From Thiomonas intermedia (GTDB taxonomy: Bacteria > Pseudomonadota > Gammaproteobacteria > Burkholderiales > Burkholderiaceae_C): DNA of 64,000 nt. The position numbers were made by a program, and so were the translations under genes. Below, piece after piece: positions 6,767 through 13,763 of this stretch (within the stretch, counting starts at the first letter, position 1; every line of letters starts with the position of its first letter). A model generated the notes under the pieces. It was not told the origin of the DNA. It worked only from the letters and a program-made list of their open reading frames with translations, and made no database searches. Location of the stretch: positions 1,488,001-1,552,000 of the forward strand of contig NZ_CP020046.1 in the NCBI RefSeq assembly GCF_002028405.1, read 5' to 3'.

Positions 6767-7744
6767 TCAGCGCGCCTTGGGGGCGCCGGTATCGCCCAGC
6801 AGTTTGCCGTTGACCTTGGTACCGTAGAGGCTGAACTTGCTGTCGTGGTACTTGGCGCGCGTGCCCGCCACCGTGCCGGTCCAACGCGGGTCTTGCGGGC
6901 GCTCCTGCGCATCCATGAAGTAAGCCACGTCCCAGGCCTGCTGCGGCGTCAGGCTGTAGCTCTGGCCATAGGGCATGTTGGCGTGGATAAACTCCGCCGC
7001 ACTCTTGATGCTGCCCATGCCCGCGCCCCAGTTGAAGGACTTGTCGCCCCACAGCGGCGGAAACACCGTCTTGCCTTCGACGTACTGCCCCTGGCCGTCT
7101 GCGCCATGGCAGATCGCGCAGCTCTGCGCATAGACCTTCTGCCCGCGCACATAGTCGGGAGCCTGCGCCGCCTTGGCCAGCGCGGGATAGCCACGGCCCG
7201 GCGTCTTCTCGTCTACAGGCAGGCCGGTGGACAGCCAGTACGCGTAGCTCTCCAGCGCCACCAGCGGTTCGCTGCCCAGCGGCGGCGCCTTGCCGTTTTC
7301 GCTGTACATGAAGCAGCCTTGCAATCGCTCCTCGAAGGTGTTGACCTTCTTGTTCTTGGCCCGGTAGGCCGGGTAGCTGACATAGGCCGCCCACATCGGC
7401 GCCGACCCGGCCATGCGTCCGCCGTCGGTATGGCAGTTCACGCAGCTCAGGCTATTGCCGACATAGGCCTTGGCGTACTTGGGTGTGTCGACCATGATGT
7501 CGCGGCCCAGGCGCACCATCTTGCCGAAGTCATTGTTCGGAATGGCCGACTCCGGGGGCGGTTGAAACTTGGAACCCGTCCCCACGGCGGCATTGATCTG
7601 CGAGGGCGGCGGGGCCACCGGCACTGCTGGCGTCTGCGCGGCGGCCGTGGCCGTGCCGGCAGCCGCCAGCAGCGCCGCCTGCAGCAGAGCGAGACGGCCA
7701 TGGCGATGCAGGCGGGACGTGGCGCGGGTGATCAGGACTGTCAT
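6767..7744 (-). CDS. tsdA: Thiosulfate dehydrogenase, dihaem cytochrome c (TsdA)
   Basis: A 325-residue periplasmic dihaem cytochrome of the TsdA family, which joins two thiosulfates into tetrathionate (reversible in some homologues). A signal peptide covers about residues 1-37. Haem 1 attaches at C101-V-N-C-H105, within the family-typical stretch starting VGNSLSC. The unusual axial ligand of the family, a cysteine, is present as Cys144 in LQGCFMYSENGKAPP. Haem 2 attaches at C209-A-I-C-H213, and Met257 in ANMPYG is a candidate distal ligand. It lies 76 nt downstream of tsdB on the same strand. The assignment rests on motif pattern; biochemical direction is unknown. Confidence 0.9.
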   Translation of the reverse strand: MTVLITRATSRLHRHGRLALLQAALLAAAGTATAAAQTPAVPVAPPPSQINAAVGTGSKFQPPPESAIPNNDFGKMVRLGRDIMVDTPKYAKAYVGNSLSCVNCHTDGGRMAGSAPMWAAYVSYPAYRAKNKKVNTFEERLQGCFMYSENGKAPPLGSEPLVALESYAYWLSTGLPVDEKTPGRGYPALAKAAQAPDYVRGQKVYAQSCAICHGADGQGQYVEGKTVFPPLWGDKSFNWGAGMGSIKSAAEFIHANMPYGQSYSLTPQQAWDVAYFMDAQERPQDPRWTGTVAGTRAKYHDSKFSLYGTKVNGKLLGDTGAPKAR

Positions 7745-7820
7745 GGGAAATCCTCAACGATTCGGTTCGGTCAGGGACGCAACGCCGGGCATGCAGCGCT
7801 GCGGTTCACGCAGGCAGGTT

Positions 7821-8495
7821 TCAGGGCGCCTTCTTGACAGGCGCGGCCGCCTTGGGGCCGGGAACGGGTTGTGCTGCCAGCCAGGCCGCGGCGGCCTGCG
7901 TCTGGGCATCGGTCATTCGCAACGCCACCGTCTGCATCAAAGCCTGCGGATCGCCCCGGCGCGTGCCCTCTTTCCAGGCCTTGATCTGCGCTTCGATATA
8001 CGCGGCTGGCTGGCCCAGCAACGGCGGAAAGGCCGTGCCGACGCCCTCCAGCCCGGGGCCGTGGCACCTTATGCACGCGGGAATGCCCTTCGACCAGTCT
8101 CCCTGGTGAACCAGGGCATCGCCCAGTGCCGCCTGCTCCGCTGGCGGCGCTTTGGCCAAAGGCGCCTCTCCGAGATGCAGGCCCGAGTAATAGGCCGCGA
8201 GATGGGAGATGTCGGCCGGGTTCAGCGGTTTGGCCATGGCCGACATCAGCGCATTGTTGCGCTGCCCGTCGGCGAAGGCTTTCAACTGGGCTTCGATGTA
8301 GGCCTTGGGCAGACCCGCCAGGCGGGGGTAGCCCGCCGCGGCATTGCCCATGCCGTTGGCGCCGTGACAGGCCGCGCACGAGGCAGGGTCTGCCGCGGTC
8401 GCCGCCAGAACTGGCAGCGCGGCGCTGGCGGCCAGCACCGCAACGCTGGCGGCAAGCCGCCGCAGGAACTGATGTAAAGGATTCGATCGGATCAT
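7821..8495 (-). CDS. tsdB: Dihaem cytochrome c4-type electron acceptor (TsdB)
   Basis: A periplasmic dihaem cytochrome of about 224 residues. A signal peptide ends near residue 32 (VLAATAA). Two c4-like repeats follow, with haem motifs C40-A-A-C-H44 and C141-I-R-C-H145, each followed by a YPRLAGLP / FPPLLGQP element. It precedes tsdA in the order known for tsdBA pairs, where TsdB receives electrons from TsdA. I chose the start MIRSN at 8495 because CAGGAG lies just upstream and the signal peptide begins there; a longer frame starting at 8567 is less likely. A generic cytochrome c4 is the alternative name. Confidence 0.87.
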   Translation of the reverse strand: MIRSNPLHQFLRRLAASVAVLAASAALPVLAATAADPASCAACHGANGMGNAAAGYPRLAGLPKAYIEAQLKAFADGQRNNALMSAMAKPLNPADISHLAAYYSGLHLGEAPLAKAPPAEQAALGDALVHQGDWSKGIPACIRCHGPGLEGVGTAFPPLLGQPAAYIEAQIKAWKEGTRRGDPQALMQTVALRMTDAQTQAAAAWLAAQPVPGPKAAAPVKKAP

Positions 8496-8617
8496 GGGCG
8501 CATCTCCTGTAGCCGACATGACGCTGACGAATGAATCTTCCTTCCGCTTAGTCGGGCCTGCCCTCAAGCATAGAGTGTCGTACCCAATCCAATTGTGTCT
8601 GGATACGACCGATCCAG

Positions 8618-10510: not shown

Positions 10511-10810
10511 ATGACCTCACCGCGGATCGAGACCGCCGTCCTCACCCTGCCCACTCTGCTGCGCATCAATGCCGCCATCGGTGCCGGTTTCGGCCTGCTC
10601 AGCGCATTGCTCACAGCCATCGTGAAGTGGCAGGACTTCAATGGACTGGAGCTTCTGGCCATCCTGCCGGGCGCCCTGTTCTTCAACACCCTGGCCCTGC
10701 TTTTTGTCACGTTAGTGGGGTATTGGCTCTATCGCTGGCTCGCCGAGCGCCAACACTGGAGCCTGCATCACCTGCACACACGCCGGACCCATCCGCATCC
10801 GTCCGATTGA
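10511..10810 (+). CDS. Small two-helix membrane protein
   Basis: A 99-residue protein with two predicted membrane segments (about residues 14-39 and 49-76) and a charged, histidine-rich tail (HHLHTRRTHPHPSD). I do not recognise the family. It begins 18 nt after proA and ends 22 nt before the exported DsrE-like gene, so it belongs to the same transcription unit as one or both. Confidence 0.6.
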   Translation: MTSPRIETAVLTLPTLLRINAAIGAGFGLLSALLTAIVKWQDFNGLELLAILPGALFFNTLALLFVTLVGYWLYRWLAERQHWSLHHLHTRRTHPHPSD

Positions 10811-10832: not shown

Positions 10833-11300
10833 ATGAATCCACGTGACCGCATCAAATGGCTCGGTGCCGGGCTGGTCGGGCTTGGCGGTGCCCGTCTGGC
10901 GCAGGCGCAGACCCAAGGCCCCGTGTCGGCGAAGGCGATCTCGAACGAGCCGTGGAAGGTCGCGATGCAGATCAGCGACAGTCTGGAACAGGCCTACGAG
11001 GGTTTGATCAATATCCAGAACGTTCTGGAGCTCGATCCGAAGATGCAGTTCATCGTGGTGGGCTATGGCAAGGCCATCCACTTTCTGCTCAACGGCGCCA
11101 AGACGCCACAAGGCGCCTTGTTCTCCGGCATGATCGGCGACCTGGCCAATCAGGGCGTGCAGTTCAAGGCCTGCAACAACACCCTCACCTTCCTGAAGAT
11201 CCCACAAAGTCAGCTGGTGCTCGAAGCCACCCTGGTTCCCGCCGGCGTCTACGAGCTGGTGAAACTGCAATCCGAAGGCTGGTACTACATCAAGCCCTGA
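10833..11300 (+). CDS. Exported DsrE-family protein 1
   Basis: A 155-residue DsrE/DsrF-like protein with an N-terminal signal-like segment (about residues 1-26, ending RLAQAQ), so probably periplasmic. The core alternates strands and helices as in DsrE (QFIVVGYGKAIHFLLNG) and contains one conserved cysteine, Cys114 in FKACNNTL. The C-terminal VPAGVYELVKLQSEGWYYIKP block closely matches that of the second DsrE-like protein at 13299. A GGAGAAACC ribosome-binding region precedes the ATG. Cytoplasmic DsrE proteins carry sulfane sulfur on cysteine; the same role outside the cytoplasm, beside the sulfide dehydrogenase, is inferred. Confidence 0.85.
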   Translation: MNPRDRIKWLGAGLVGLGGARLAQAQTQGPVSAKAISNEPWKVAMQISDSLEQAYEGLINIQNVLELDPKMQFIVVGYGKAIHFLLNGAKTPQGALFSGMIGDLANQGVQFKACNNTLTFLKIPQSQLVLEATLVPAGVYELVKLQSEGWYYIKP

Positions 11301-11541
11301 ACGGAGACGGTGCGGCGCGGCGCGGCGCGCCTCGGCTTCGGCCTCGTCTCGCATCGCACCGGCAGAATTCGGCGCCGCAGCATTCGCGCCAATCTCGCGT
11401 TGAGGCAACGCAAGATGAACCGGCCCTTCTGCTGGTTCACCCGAATGTATCTATTTGCTACATTTCGATACCTTTTGTGATGGATCAAGGACCGTGAGAT
11501 GTCTTCTGATCTGCCGCTCTATTCCTTCAAGGAGGCATCGA

Positions 11542-11844
11542 ATGTTGCGCAAACTTCTGCTGACGTCCCTGCTCTGCGCCACAGGCGCGGCGCATGCGGG
11601 CACTTCCCTGGTGACGCCGGCCCAGTCGCTGGCCGCCACCTGCTTCAACTGCCACGGGCCGCACGGCGTGTCCACCGCCTCCATCCCCTCCCTGGCCGGG
11701 CGTAGTGCCGCCTCCATCGTGGACGCCATGGCCGAATACAAGTCGGGCAAGCGCACCGGCACCATCATGCCGCAGATCGCCAAGGGCTACACCGAGGCCC
11801 AGATCCAGTTGATCGCCACCTATTTCGCCCAGCAGAAACCGTAA
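11542..11844 (+). CDS. fccA: Flavocytochrome c sulfide dehydrogenase, cytochrome subunit
   Basis: A monohaem cytochrome c of 100 residues, the expected partner of the downstream flavoprotein. The signal peptide covers residues 1-19 (cleavage after AAHA). The haem motif is C34-F-N-C-H38 within the c4-like TCFNCHGPHG sequence, and a candidate Met ligand lies in TGTIMPQIAKGYT. A strong AAGGAGG ribosome-binding site lies at 11529-11535. The gene stops 12 nt before fccB. Electrons from sulfide oxidised on FccB flavin would leave through this haem. FccA in some bacteria has two haems; this one has one. Confidence 0.88.
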   Translation: MLRKLLLTSLLCATGAAHAGTSLVTPAQSLAATCFNCHGPHGVSTASIPSLAGRSAASIVDAMAEYKSGKRTGTIMPQIAKGYTEAQIQLIATYFAQQKP

Positions 11845-11856
11845 GGACGTCCCATC

Positions 11857-13149
11857 ATGCAATCACGTCGCAACTTTCTTGCAGGCGCCACCACCGTGGG
11901 CGCCCTCGGCCTCGCACCCGCCCTCTCCGGCTGCGCCAGCACCACGCGCAACGCGGCGGGCAAAGGCAAGGTCGTCATCGTCGGCGCCGGTTACGGTGGA
12001 TCGACCGCCGCCAAATACATCCGCGACTGGTCGGGCAACACCATCGAGGTCACGGTCGTGGAGCCGGGCGATGACTTCGTCTCCTGCCCGGTATCCAATC
12101 TGGTCATCGCGGGCGCCAAGTCCATGCAGGACATCACCACCTCCTACGACGCGCTGCGCGGCCGACACGGCGTGACATGGATCAAGAGCATGGTGGAGAG
12201 CATCGACCCGGCCGCGCGCACCGTGAAGCTCGCCAACGGCGACAGCCTGAAGTACGACAAGCTCGTGGTCTCGCCCGGCATCGACCTGATGTACGACACC
12301 GTCAAGGGGCTGAAGGCCGCGAATGAATCCGGCAAGATCCTCATCTCGATGAAGGCCGGCCCCGAGACCGTGGCGCTGCGCAAGCAGATCGAAGCCATGC
12401 CCGACGGCGGCGTGTTCGCGCTGACGGTGCCGAAGGCGCCCTACCGCTGCCCCCCCGGGCCGTACGAGCGTGCCTCGCTGGTGGCTGCCTACTTCAAGAA
12501 ACACAAGCCCAAGTCCAAGGTCATCATCTTCGACGCCAACGACAAGGTGCAGTCCAAGGAGCCGCTGTTCAAGAAGGCCTGGGCCGAGATGTACGGCGGC
12601 ATGGTGGAGTATGTGCCCGACCACAATGTGGTGGGCGTGAACACGCAGACCATGGAGGCCGAATTCGAGGTTGACGCCCCGGTGAAAGCCGACGTGCTCA
12701 ACATCATTCCCATGCAGCGCGCCGGCGTCATTGCCCAGCGCACCGGTCTGTCCAATATGAATGGACGCTGGTGTGCGGTGGACTACCGCACCTTTGAGTC
12801 GACGGTCCACAAGGACATCCACGTGCTGGGCGACTCGATCCAGATCTCGCCGCTGATGCCCAAGTCGGGTCACATGGCCAACCAGCAGGCCAAGGTGGCG
12901 GCAGCCGCCATCGTGTCCATGCTTTACGACCAGCCGATCAACCCCAGCCCGGTGGTGATGAACACCTGCTACAGCATGGTGAGCTTCCATCAGGCCATCC
13001 ACGTGGCCACGGTGCACCAGTACAGCGAAAAGGACAAGACCTTCCTCACGGTGCCGGGCTCGGGCGGCATCTCGGCCGGCCTGTCCGACGTCGAGGCGCA
13101 CTACGCCGAGGCCTGGGCCACCAACATCTGGCGCGACACCCTGTCCTGA
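11857..13149 (+). CDS. fccB: Flavocytochrome c sulfide dehydrogenase, flavoprotein subunit
   Basis: A 430-residue FAD protein of the sulfide:quinone reductase superfamily that oxidises sulfide in the periplasm. A twin-arginine signal (SRRNFLAG) occupies the first 35 residues. The FAD-binding VIVGAGYGGSTAA motif begins at residue 40. Cys77 in VSCPVSN matches the position of the cysteine that binds FAD covalently in the Allochromatium enzyme once the signal is removed. The redox-active cysteines are probably Cys198 (APYRCPPGP) and Cys306 (GRWCAVDY). It follows fccA by 12 nt and is closed by an intrinsic terminator. Confidence 0.94.
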   Translation: MQSRRNFLAGATTVGALGLAPALSGCASTTRNAAGKGKVVIVGAGYGGSTAAKYIRDWSGNTIEVTVVEPGDDFVSCPVSNLVIAGAKSMQDITTSYDALRGRHGVTWIKSMVESIDPAARTVKLANGDSLKYDKLVVSPGIDLMYDTVKGLKAANESGKILISMKAGPETVALRKQIEAMPDGGVFALTVPKAPYRCPPGPYERASLVAAYFKKHKPKSKVIIFDANDKVQSKEPLFKKAWAEMYGGMVEYVPDHNVVGVNTQTMEAEFEVDAPVKADVLNIIPMQRAGVIAQRTGLSNMNGRWCAVDYRTFESTVHKDIHVLGDSIQISPLMPKSGHMANQQAKVAAAAIVSMLYDQPINPSPVVMNTCYSMVSFHQAIHVATVHQYSEKDKTFLTVPGSGGISAGLSDVEAHYAEAWATNIWRDTLS

Positions 13150-13217
13150 AGACACCCACGCGCCGCAGGGTCTGAATCCGCACGGATTGTGCGGCGCGTC
13201 GTTCGCAGGCATCATGC

Positions 13218-13246
13218 AAGGGTCGATCATGAATCGGCCCTTTTTC
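13218..13246 (+). terminator. Intrinsic terminator of fccAB
   Basis: A 10-bp stem (AAGGGTCGAT / ATCGGCCCTT, one G-T pair) with a 5-nt loop runs into five T residues. It lies 69 nt after the fccB stop and before the second dsrE-like gene, so that gene probably has its own promoter or depends on read-through. Confidence 0.8.
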
Positions 13247-13298
13247 TCGCACTAGCGCCTTCAGAGCGTGATACGCCCCCACCCCAAGGAGGAGACCT

Positions 13299-13763
13299 AT
13301 GGAAAACACCACCAACCGCCGCAAGGCCCTGGCCGCAGCCACCGTTGGCGCTGCGGCGCTCATGGCCAGCACCACCGCACGGGCGCAAGGCCGCGCAGAC
13401 AAGGAAGGTCCCGTGAAAGTTGTTTATCACGTCACCCAAGGCGATGCGCAAGGCTCGCGCTGTCTGGGCAATGTGCGCAATCATCTCGCCGCCGACCCCA
13501 CGGCGAAGATCGTCGTTGTCGGCAATGGGGCCGGCATTGATTTCATGCTCAATGGCGCGGTGGACGGCAAGGGTGCCGAGTTCGCCGGGCTGGTCGGCGG
13601 ACTGGCCTCGCAGGGGGTTTCGTTCCGAGTGTGCAACAACACCCTGACTACGCGCAAGATTTCCAAGGACCGCGTGCTGCTCGATGCCACCATCGTCCCC
13701 TCCGGCGTGGCCGAGGCCGCCAATCTGCAGTATCGCGAAGGCTTCGCCTACATCTGCCCTTGA
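13299..13763 (+). CDS. Exported DsrE-family protein 2
   Basis: A 154-residue paralogue of the DsrE-like protein at 10833. An N-terminal signal of about 30 residues starts NRRKALAAATVG (twin-arginine-like) and ends TTARAQ. The core shows KIVVVGNGAGIDFMLNG and the conserved FRVCNNTLTT with Cys112. Unlike its paralogue it has two further cysteines, Cys55 (GSRCLGN) and Cys153 in the final YICP. A CAAGGAGGAGACC ribosome-binding region precedes the ATG. A periplasmic sulfur-carrier or sulfur-relay role next to FccAB is inferred, not shown. Confidence 0.86.
   Translation: MENTTNRRKALAAATVGAAALMASTTARAQGRADKEGPVKVVYHVTQGDAQGSRCLGNVRNHLAADPTAKIVVVGNGAGIDFMLNGAVDGKGAEFAGLVGGLASQGVSFRVCNNTLTTRKISKDRVLLDATIVPSGVAEAANLQYREGFAYICP

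Follow-up and report, generated by a model that had tools for sequence, protein, structure and literature searches.

The window, that is, the whole stretch of 64,000 nucleotides of Thiomonas chromosomal DNA analysed here, carries two genes for DsrE-like proteins, DsrE1 and DsrE2, on either side of the genes for a flavocytochrome c sulfide dehydrogenase (FCSD), in the order proA, small hydrophobic protein gene, DsrE1, fccA, fccB, DsrE2 and rsmB. The features referred to below are as follows.

10511..10810, + strand: small hydrophobic protein of 99 aa, between proA and DsrE1
10833..11300, + strand: DsrE1, DsrE/DsrF-like protein of 155 aa; signal-like residues 1-25 (RDRIKWLGAGLVGLGGARLAQA); its only cysteine is C114 in ACNNTL
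11542..11844, + strand: fccA, monoheme c-type cytochrome subunit with CFNCH and a Sec-type signal; PF13442 and PF00034
11857..13149, + strand: fccB, flavoprotein subunit of flavocytochrome c sulfide dehydrogenase; PF21706 (E 7e-46) and PF09242 (E 5e-22); RRNFLAG twin-arginine signal, then a lipobox-like LSGC
13219..13246, + strand: terminator-like hairpin with T-run in the fccB/DsrE2 gap; -16.5 kcal/mol for the stretch 13205-13252
13299..13763, + strand: DsrE2, predicted exported DsrE/DsrF-like protein of 154 aa; NRRKALAA twin-arginine-type signal; C112 in VCNNTL; extra cysteines C55 and C153
38283..39254, - strand: exported rhodanese-domain protein (MKIAKTLIAAAIGMGAAHA...), the rhodanese named in the first-pass annotation, about 24.5 kb from the DsrE/fccAB locus

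The start of fccA (11542) is that given by gene calling. The bracketing of fccA and fccB by two DsrE-like genes, described in the first-pass annotation, was confirmed: both open reading frames are present at these coordinates, both genes and fccAB lie on the same (+) strand, and the assignments are confirmed by Pfam. The enzyme has the FCSD-specific domains PF21706 and PF09242 as well as a CxxCH cytochrome subunit, identifying it as FCSD. The 99-aa hydrophobic protein gave no match in Pfam, and its gene adjoins DsrE1 in most Thiomonas-clade loci. Because a gap of 241 bp lies 5′ of fccA and a gap of 149 bp, with the hairpin and T-run, lies 5′ of DsrE2, fccAB is probably a transcription unit of its own. 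A scan for consensus promoters and terminators gave no match above chance, and the hairpin is absent from its output. At the N-terminus of FccB (window 11857-11940) the twin-arginine signal directly abuts the lipobox-like LSGC, and a cysteine occupies the same place in all Thiomonas FccBs and in most DsrE-adjacent FccBs of other Burkholderiales; judging from sequence, the FCSD of the window may thus be anchored in the membrane as a Tat lipoprotein. Upstream (6767-8567, - strand) lie two diheme cytochrome genes, one of the SoxA/TsdA type and one c4-like, a pair that also adjoins proA in T. delicata (L127).

Both DsrE-like proteins matched PF02635 (DsrE/DsrF-like) above its curated cut-off of 22.7, with 39.5 bits (E 7e-10) for DsrE1 and 29.7 bits (E 8e-7) for DsrE2; NCBIfam had a model for neither. 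The AlphaFold models have pLDDT values of 94.0 (DsrE1) and 94.9 (DsrE2). The top structural match of the DsrE1 model was MTH1491, and the Z-scores of the DsrE2 model were 19.2 for MTH1491 (1l1s), 18.7 for ST0148 (2pd2), 13.9 for TusD (2d1p_A) and 13.5 for the DsrE of DsrEFH (2hy5_A). A profile search also retrieved MTH1491 (E 6e-25) and ST0148 (E 2e-16), with the conserved cysteine aligned to the MTH1491 cysteine. The earlier assignment to the DsrE family was upheld by the PF02635 scores and by models matching the DsrE/TusD fold; on these predicted structures, DsrE1 and DsrE2 are DsrE-fold proteins.

The cysteine of the CNNTL motif, C114 in DsrE1 and C112 in DsrE2, is the sole invariant cysteine in 46 aligned homologues, so that the two features of sulfur carriers, a DsrE fold (in the models) and a conserved cysteine, are found together. 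In the DsrE2 model (mature numbering), C112 is placed at the end of strand 79-83 and the start of helix 84-89, C55 within helix 20-36 and C153 at the C-terminus. The residue numbering of the first-pass annotation was correct, with C55 and C153 (in YICP) occurring in DsrE2 only. Its proposal that these extra cysteines make the two proteins a donor-acceptor pair failed: C55 is missing in L052, L065 and L109, C153 is replaced by serine (YISP) in L050, which retains the fccAB bracket, and L054 and L056 have neither. A donor-acceptor split based on C55/C153 was rejected as a general feature, the extra DsrE2 cysteines not being conserved.

The aligned DsrE domain starts at about residue 40, and the extra N-terminus is therefore of signal-peptide size. 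A crude signal test was applied, in which a positive charge, a hydrophobic 11-mer with a mean KD of at least 1.4 and a small-x-Ala (A-x-A) site were required. The result showed that 94 of 98 full-length homologues passed, compared to 24% of 1274 called genes; the signal-like N-termini seen at first pass on both proteins therefore recur among homologues. The twin-arginine motif NRRKALAA of DsrE2 is found across the Thiomonas clade. DsrE1 has R-D-R in place of the twin arginine and would thus use Sec or a degenerate Tat signal. Taken together, these sequence features strongly suggest that export is a trait of the homologue family and that the proteins are periplasmic.

The DsrE1-fccA-fccB-DsrE2 arrangement was found in 10 related records. 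Nine other Thiomonas-clade records (L044, L045 and L052-L058, including T. delicata) have proA-DsrE1-DsrE2-rsmB without fccAB, usually with the small hydrophobic protein gene as well, and with gaps as short as 22-58 bp, and L065 has DsrE2 without DsrE1. Although FCSD is present in 11 of 12 sampled same-genus genomes, its flavoprotein was not found genome-wide in T. delicata (G045, 99% complete), and FCSD was not found genome-wide in five more tandem genomes (L045, L052, L053, L054 and L056) or in the DsrE2-only genome L065. The pair is thus not confined to genomes with FCSD, and the suggestion that it exists to serve FccAB did not survive; an FccAB-only relay was ruled out by the same tandem genomes. 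All six FCSD-less tandem genomes carry SoxY, T. delicata having a complete soxCDYZAXB cluster, while no SoxY was found in the L065 genome. The gene tree nests the copies that bracket fccAB within the DsrE1 clade and within the DsrE2 clade, with SH-aLRT support for DsrE2 of 96% for the 11-row group and 92-93% at the forks just outside, and of 81% for DsrE1. Since the bracketed copies nest inside the tandem clade, the simplest history is that the tandem pair is older than the bracket and that about 2 kb of fccAB was inserted between DsrE1 and DsrE2, a direction of change that we infer from a tree with moderately supported deep branching. One insertion into an existing operon pair is preferred because several precise losses would be less simple.

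To describe gene contexts outside the Thiomonas bracket, 61 homologues (L060-L119) were chosen by similarity to the query. fccB lies within 2.5 kb of 15 of the 61, in the layouts dsrE-fccAB (10), fccAB-dsrE (4, with gaps of 14-93 bp) and divergent (1). Twelve are near sox genes, two of them also near fccB; 18 occupy a dapF-xerC-dsrE-rlmI site, and the remainder are in other contexts or on sequences too short to tell. Clusters of both types, soxYZAXB-dsrE and dsrE-fccAB, were seen among the homologue loci. Adjacency to fccAB requires at least seven changes of state on the tree, with various layouts and in other genera. A functional tie of the DsrE clade to FccAB is likely, because outside Thiomonas the two are again neighbours, in three layouts. 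In Hydrogenophaga and Tepidimonas (e.g. L088 and L096), a single exported DsrE gene occupies the dapF-xerC-dsrE-rlmI site, distant from sulfur genes. An exported DsrE gene on a plasmid of Runella (Bacteroidota) lies between a soxB-like gene, followed by porin and YeeE genes, and a diheme cytochrome gene similar to that upstream of the Thiomonas locus.

As the L060-L119 homologues were picked by similarity, even genome samples were also used. In the Burkholderiales sample of 300 genomes, a strong DsrE match was defined as at least 100 bits, a threshold chosen after the scores were known; scores fall from 109 to 76 just under the cut-off, and 80 of the 300 genomes have a strong match. The results showed that SoxY is present in 79 of these 80 genomes (50.7 expected, OR 78, p 5e-18) and FCSD in 63 (38.1 expected, OR 6.5), with 17 of the 80 lacking FCSD, indicating that SoxY is a much tighter partner than FCSD. 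Phylogeny was addressed in these genome-level statistics through a family-level test only, which gave 20/20 for SoxY (p 0.0035) and 16/20 for FCSD (p 0.02). Inside SoxY-positive genomes the FCSD association was reduced to an OR of 2.05 (p 0.05); the SoxY association explains most of the FCSD association. The predicted genomic association with fccAB is therefore real beyond chance, as judged from the 15 neighbouring homologues and the OR of 6.5, but SoxY is the closer companion. Counted by eye among the matches listed for the order sample, soxY is no more than about 8 kb from at least 15 of 79 homologues, and fccB is within 10 kb of at least 2 of the 79, the window locus not included. Not every SoxY genome has the exported clade, which is therefore an accessory. 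One genome of this sample (G740) has 10 DsrE-profile matches and SoxY without FCSD and may be a good system for study of the exported DsrE family.

In other Gammaproteobacteria, SoxY was present in 23 of 26 strong-match genomes compared to 2 of 19 DsrE-less genomes, and 19 of 20 FCSD-positive DsrE-less genomes also carry SoxY, the controls in both comparisons being non-random; in four cases dsrE and soxY are at most 0.7 kb apart. Class-wide, a strong DsrE match showed no association with FCSD (11 observed, 9.0 expected), which argues against FCSD as a general partner.

The first-pass annotation had also placed an exported rhodanese next in a relay from the DsrE-like proteins. The rhodanese gene of the window lies about 24.5 kb off and on the opposite strand, and a local DsrE-rhodanese relay was rejected, with other exported rhodaneses of the genome encoded at L125 and L123. 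At L125 (7356-9026; G000:C1 ~2029355-2031025), an exported rhodanese gene lies about 220 bp downstream of another exported DsrE-like gene, and these two make a better DsrE-rhodanese pair than the genes first named. L123 (4740-13469; G000:C1 ~469739-478468) brings together a second fccAB (FccB 38% identical), an exported rhodanese gene, genes for YeeE-type transporters and one more flavoprotein gene, which is SQR-like and weakly similar to FccB. Two further exported DsrE-like genes lie at L126 (4732-5226) and L124 (9970-10479), giving a genome total of about five.

The reading that we somewhat favour is that DsrE1 and DsrE2 belong to an undescribed exported clade of Sox-associated carriers of sulfane sulfur or thiosulfate, ancestrally a tandem operon in Thiomonas and able to serve FccAB. 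The clade would consist of exported single-domain DsrE-fold proteins accompanying the periplasmic Sox system and, secondarily, FCSD. The sulfane sulfur or thiosulfate group would most likely be held on the invariant C114/C112 at the strand-helix junction and passed among periplasmic enzymes and carriers, namely the FccAB product, SoxYZ and YeeE-type importers. DsrE1 and DsrE2, encoded in an ancestral tandem operon with gaps of 22-58 bp in relatives, might form a hetero-oligomer like the DsrEFH subunits, and fccAB would have been inserted between them in the lineage of the window genome. Sulfur loading, carrier function, partners and oligomer are all what we infer for the two proteins. A more specific form, in which the clade is a regular Sox accessory linking FccAB and SoxYZ to YeeE-type importers as an undescribed periplasmic sulfane-sulfur/thiosulfate carrier, and a two-protein complex in Thiomonas, is put forward tentatively. 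The Sox association itself is seen in 79 of 80 genomes and in sox contexts, but the soxCDYZAXB cluster of the window genome contains no dsrE, and about 18 homologues in the housekeeping dapF-xerC-dsrE-rlmI context are distant from sox and fcc genes; both observations run counter to the favoured reading.

These housekeeping contexts and the accessory distribution would suit a maintenance protein rather than a main-flux carrier, i.e. an exported DsrE that reduces, repairs or reactivates a thiol carrier such as SoxY or scavenges toxic sulfane sulfur. The single conserved cysteine, the co-occurrence with sox and the description of SoxS as a SoxYZ partner in literature cited by PMC11582611 are consistent with such a role, but a second conserved cysteine of the thiol-disulfide type is absent and the fold is a sulfur-carrier fold, and we regard it as unlikely. 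A relay dedicated to FccAB, in which polysulfide sulfur passes from FccAB to DsrE1/DsrE2 and is exchanged via C55/C153, is doubtful to a greater degree. It would account for the position of fccAB inside the DsrE pair of 10 related records, for the three layouts outside Thiomonas (10, 4 and 1) and for the residual association in SoxY-positive genomes (OR 2.05), but it conflicts with the tandem in FCSD-less genomes, the nesting of bracketed copies within the tandem clade, the lack of conservation of C55/C153, the terminator-like hairpin between fccB and DsrE2 and the small number of order-sample homologues near fccB (at least 2 of 79 among the matches listed). At the other extreme, fccAB may simply have landed in a pre-existing gene pair to which it has no functional tie. 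Tandem ancestry with nested insertion and the independence of the DsrE pair from FCSD fit this neutral history, which the repeated origin of fccAB adjacency (at least seven state changes, varied layouts, other genera) nevertheless makes very improbable.

The FCSD product is reported to be polysulfide (PMC9774590) and Sox-bound sulfane sulfur is transferred to the cytoplasm 'by unknown means' (PMC11582611), so an exported carrier would fit. Since DsrE3A carries thiosulfate on its cysteine rather than sulfane sulfur (PMC4175335), the cargo of an exported DsrE may be either. Because SoxY is near-constant (79/80), one cysteine is invariant and soxB, soxYZ and fccAB are repeated neighbours, the exported clade is a concrete candidate for the route of periplasmic sulfane sulfur, whether made by FccAB or held by SoxYZ, to the cytoplasm or to further enzymes. 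Broader, and of greater interest, is the finding that this clade is a near-constant Sox companion in Burkholderiales. The open-access literature yielded no account of DsrE proteins, exported or periplasmic, that are encoded in sox or fcc clusters, and the role of the clade alongside Sox is apparently undescribed so far.

With the cytoplasmic carriers DsrE (of DsrEFH) and TusD (of TusBCD), the Thiomonas proteins have in common the fold and the conserved cysteine. However, identity is 11-13%, and the Thiomonas pair is predicted to be exported and lies in sox/fcc contexts rather than in a dsr or tus cluster. A canonical cytoplasmic DsrEFH subunit was ruled out by the signal-like N-terminus and by neighbours (proA, the small hydrophobic protein gene, fccAB and rsmB) that do not include the dsrF and dsrH partner genes. 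The nearest solved relatives, MTH1491 and ST0148, are archaeal, uncharacterised DsrE-like proteins without the N-terminal extension present in DsrE1 and DsrE2. The Sox accessories SoxS, SoxW and SoxT/YeeE likewise belong to sox clusters and are exported or membrane proteins, but the folds of SoxS, SoxW and SoxT differ from the DsrE fold. Another exported accessory of a sox cluster, Rmet_3421 of C. metallidurans (PMC2864759), is a lead as a candidate member of the exported DsrE clade. The groups named DsrE2, DsrE3, DsrE4 and DsrE5 by Liu et al. (2014; PMC4175335) are also DsrE-like proteins beside sulfur-oxidation genes, DsrE4 lying beside sulfide:quinone oxidoreductase, but their links are with tusA, hdr or sqr, and they are described there without mention of signal peptides. 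Going by the descriptions in that study, the exported clade would lie outside its five groups.
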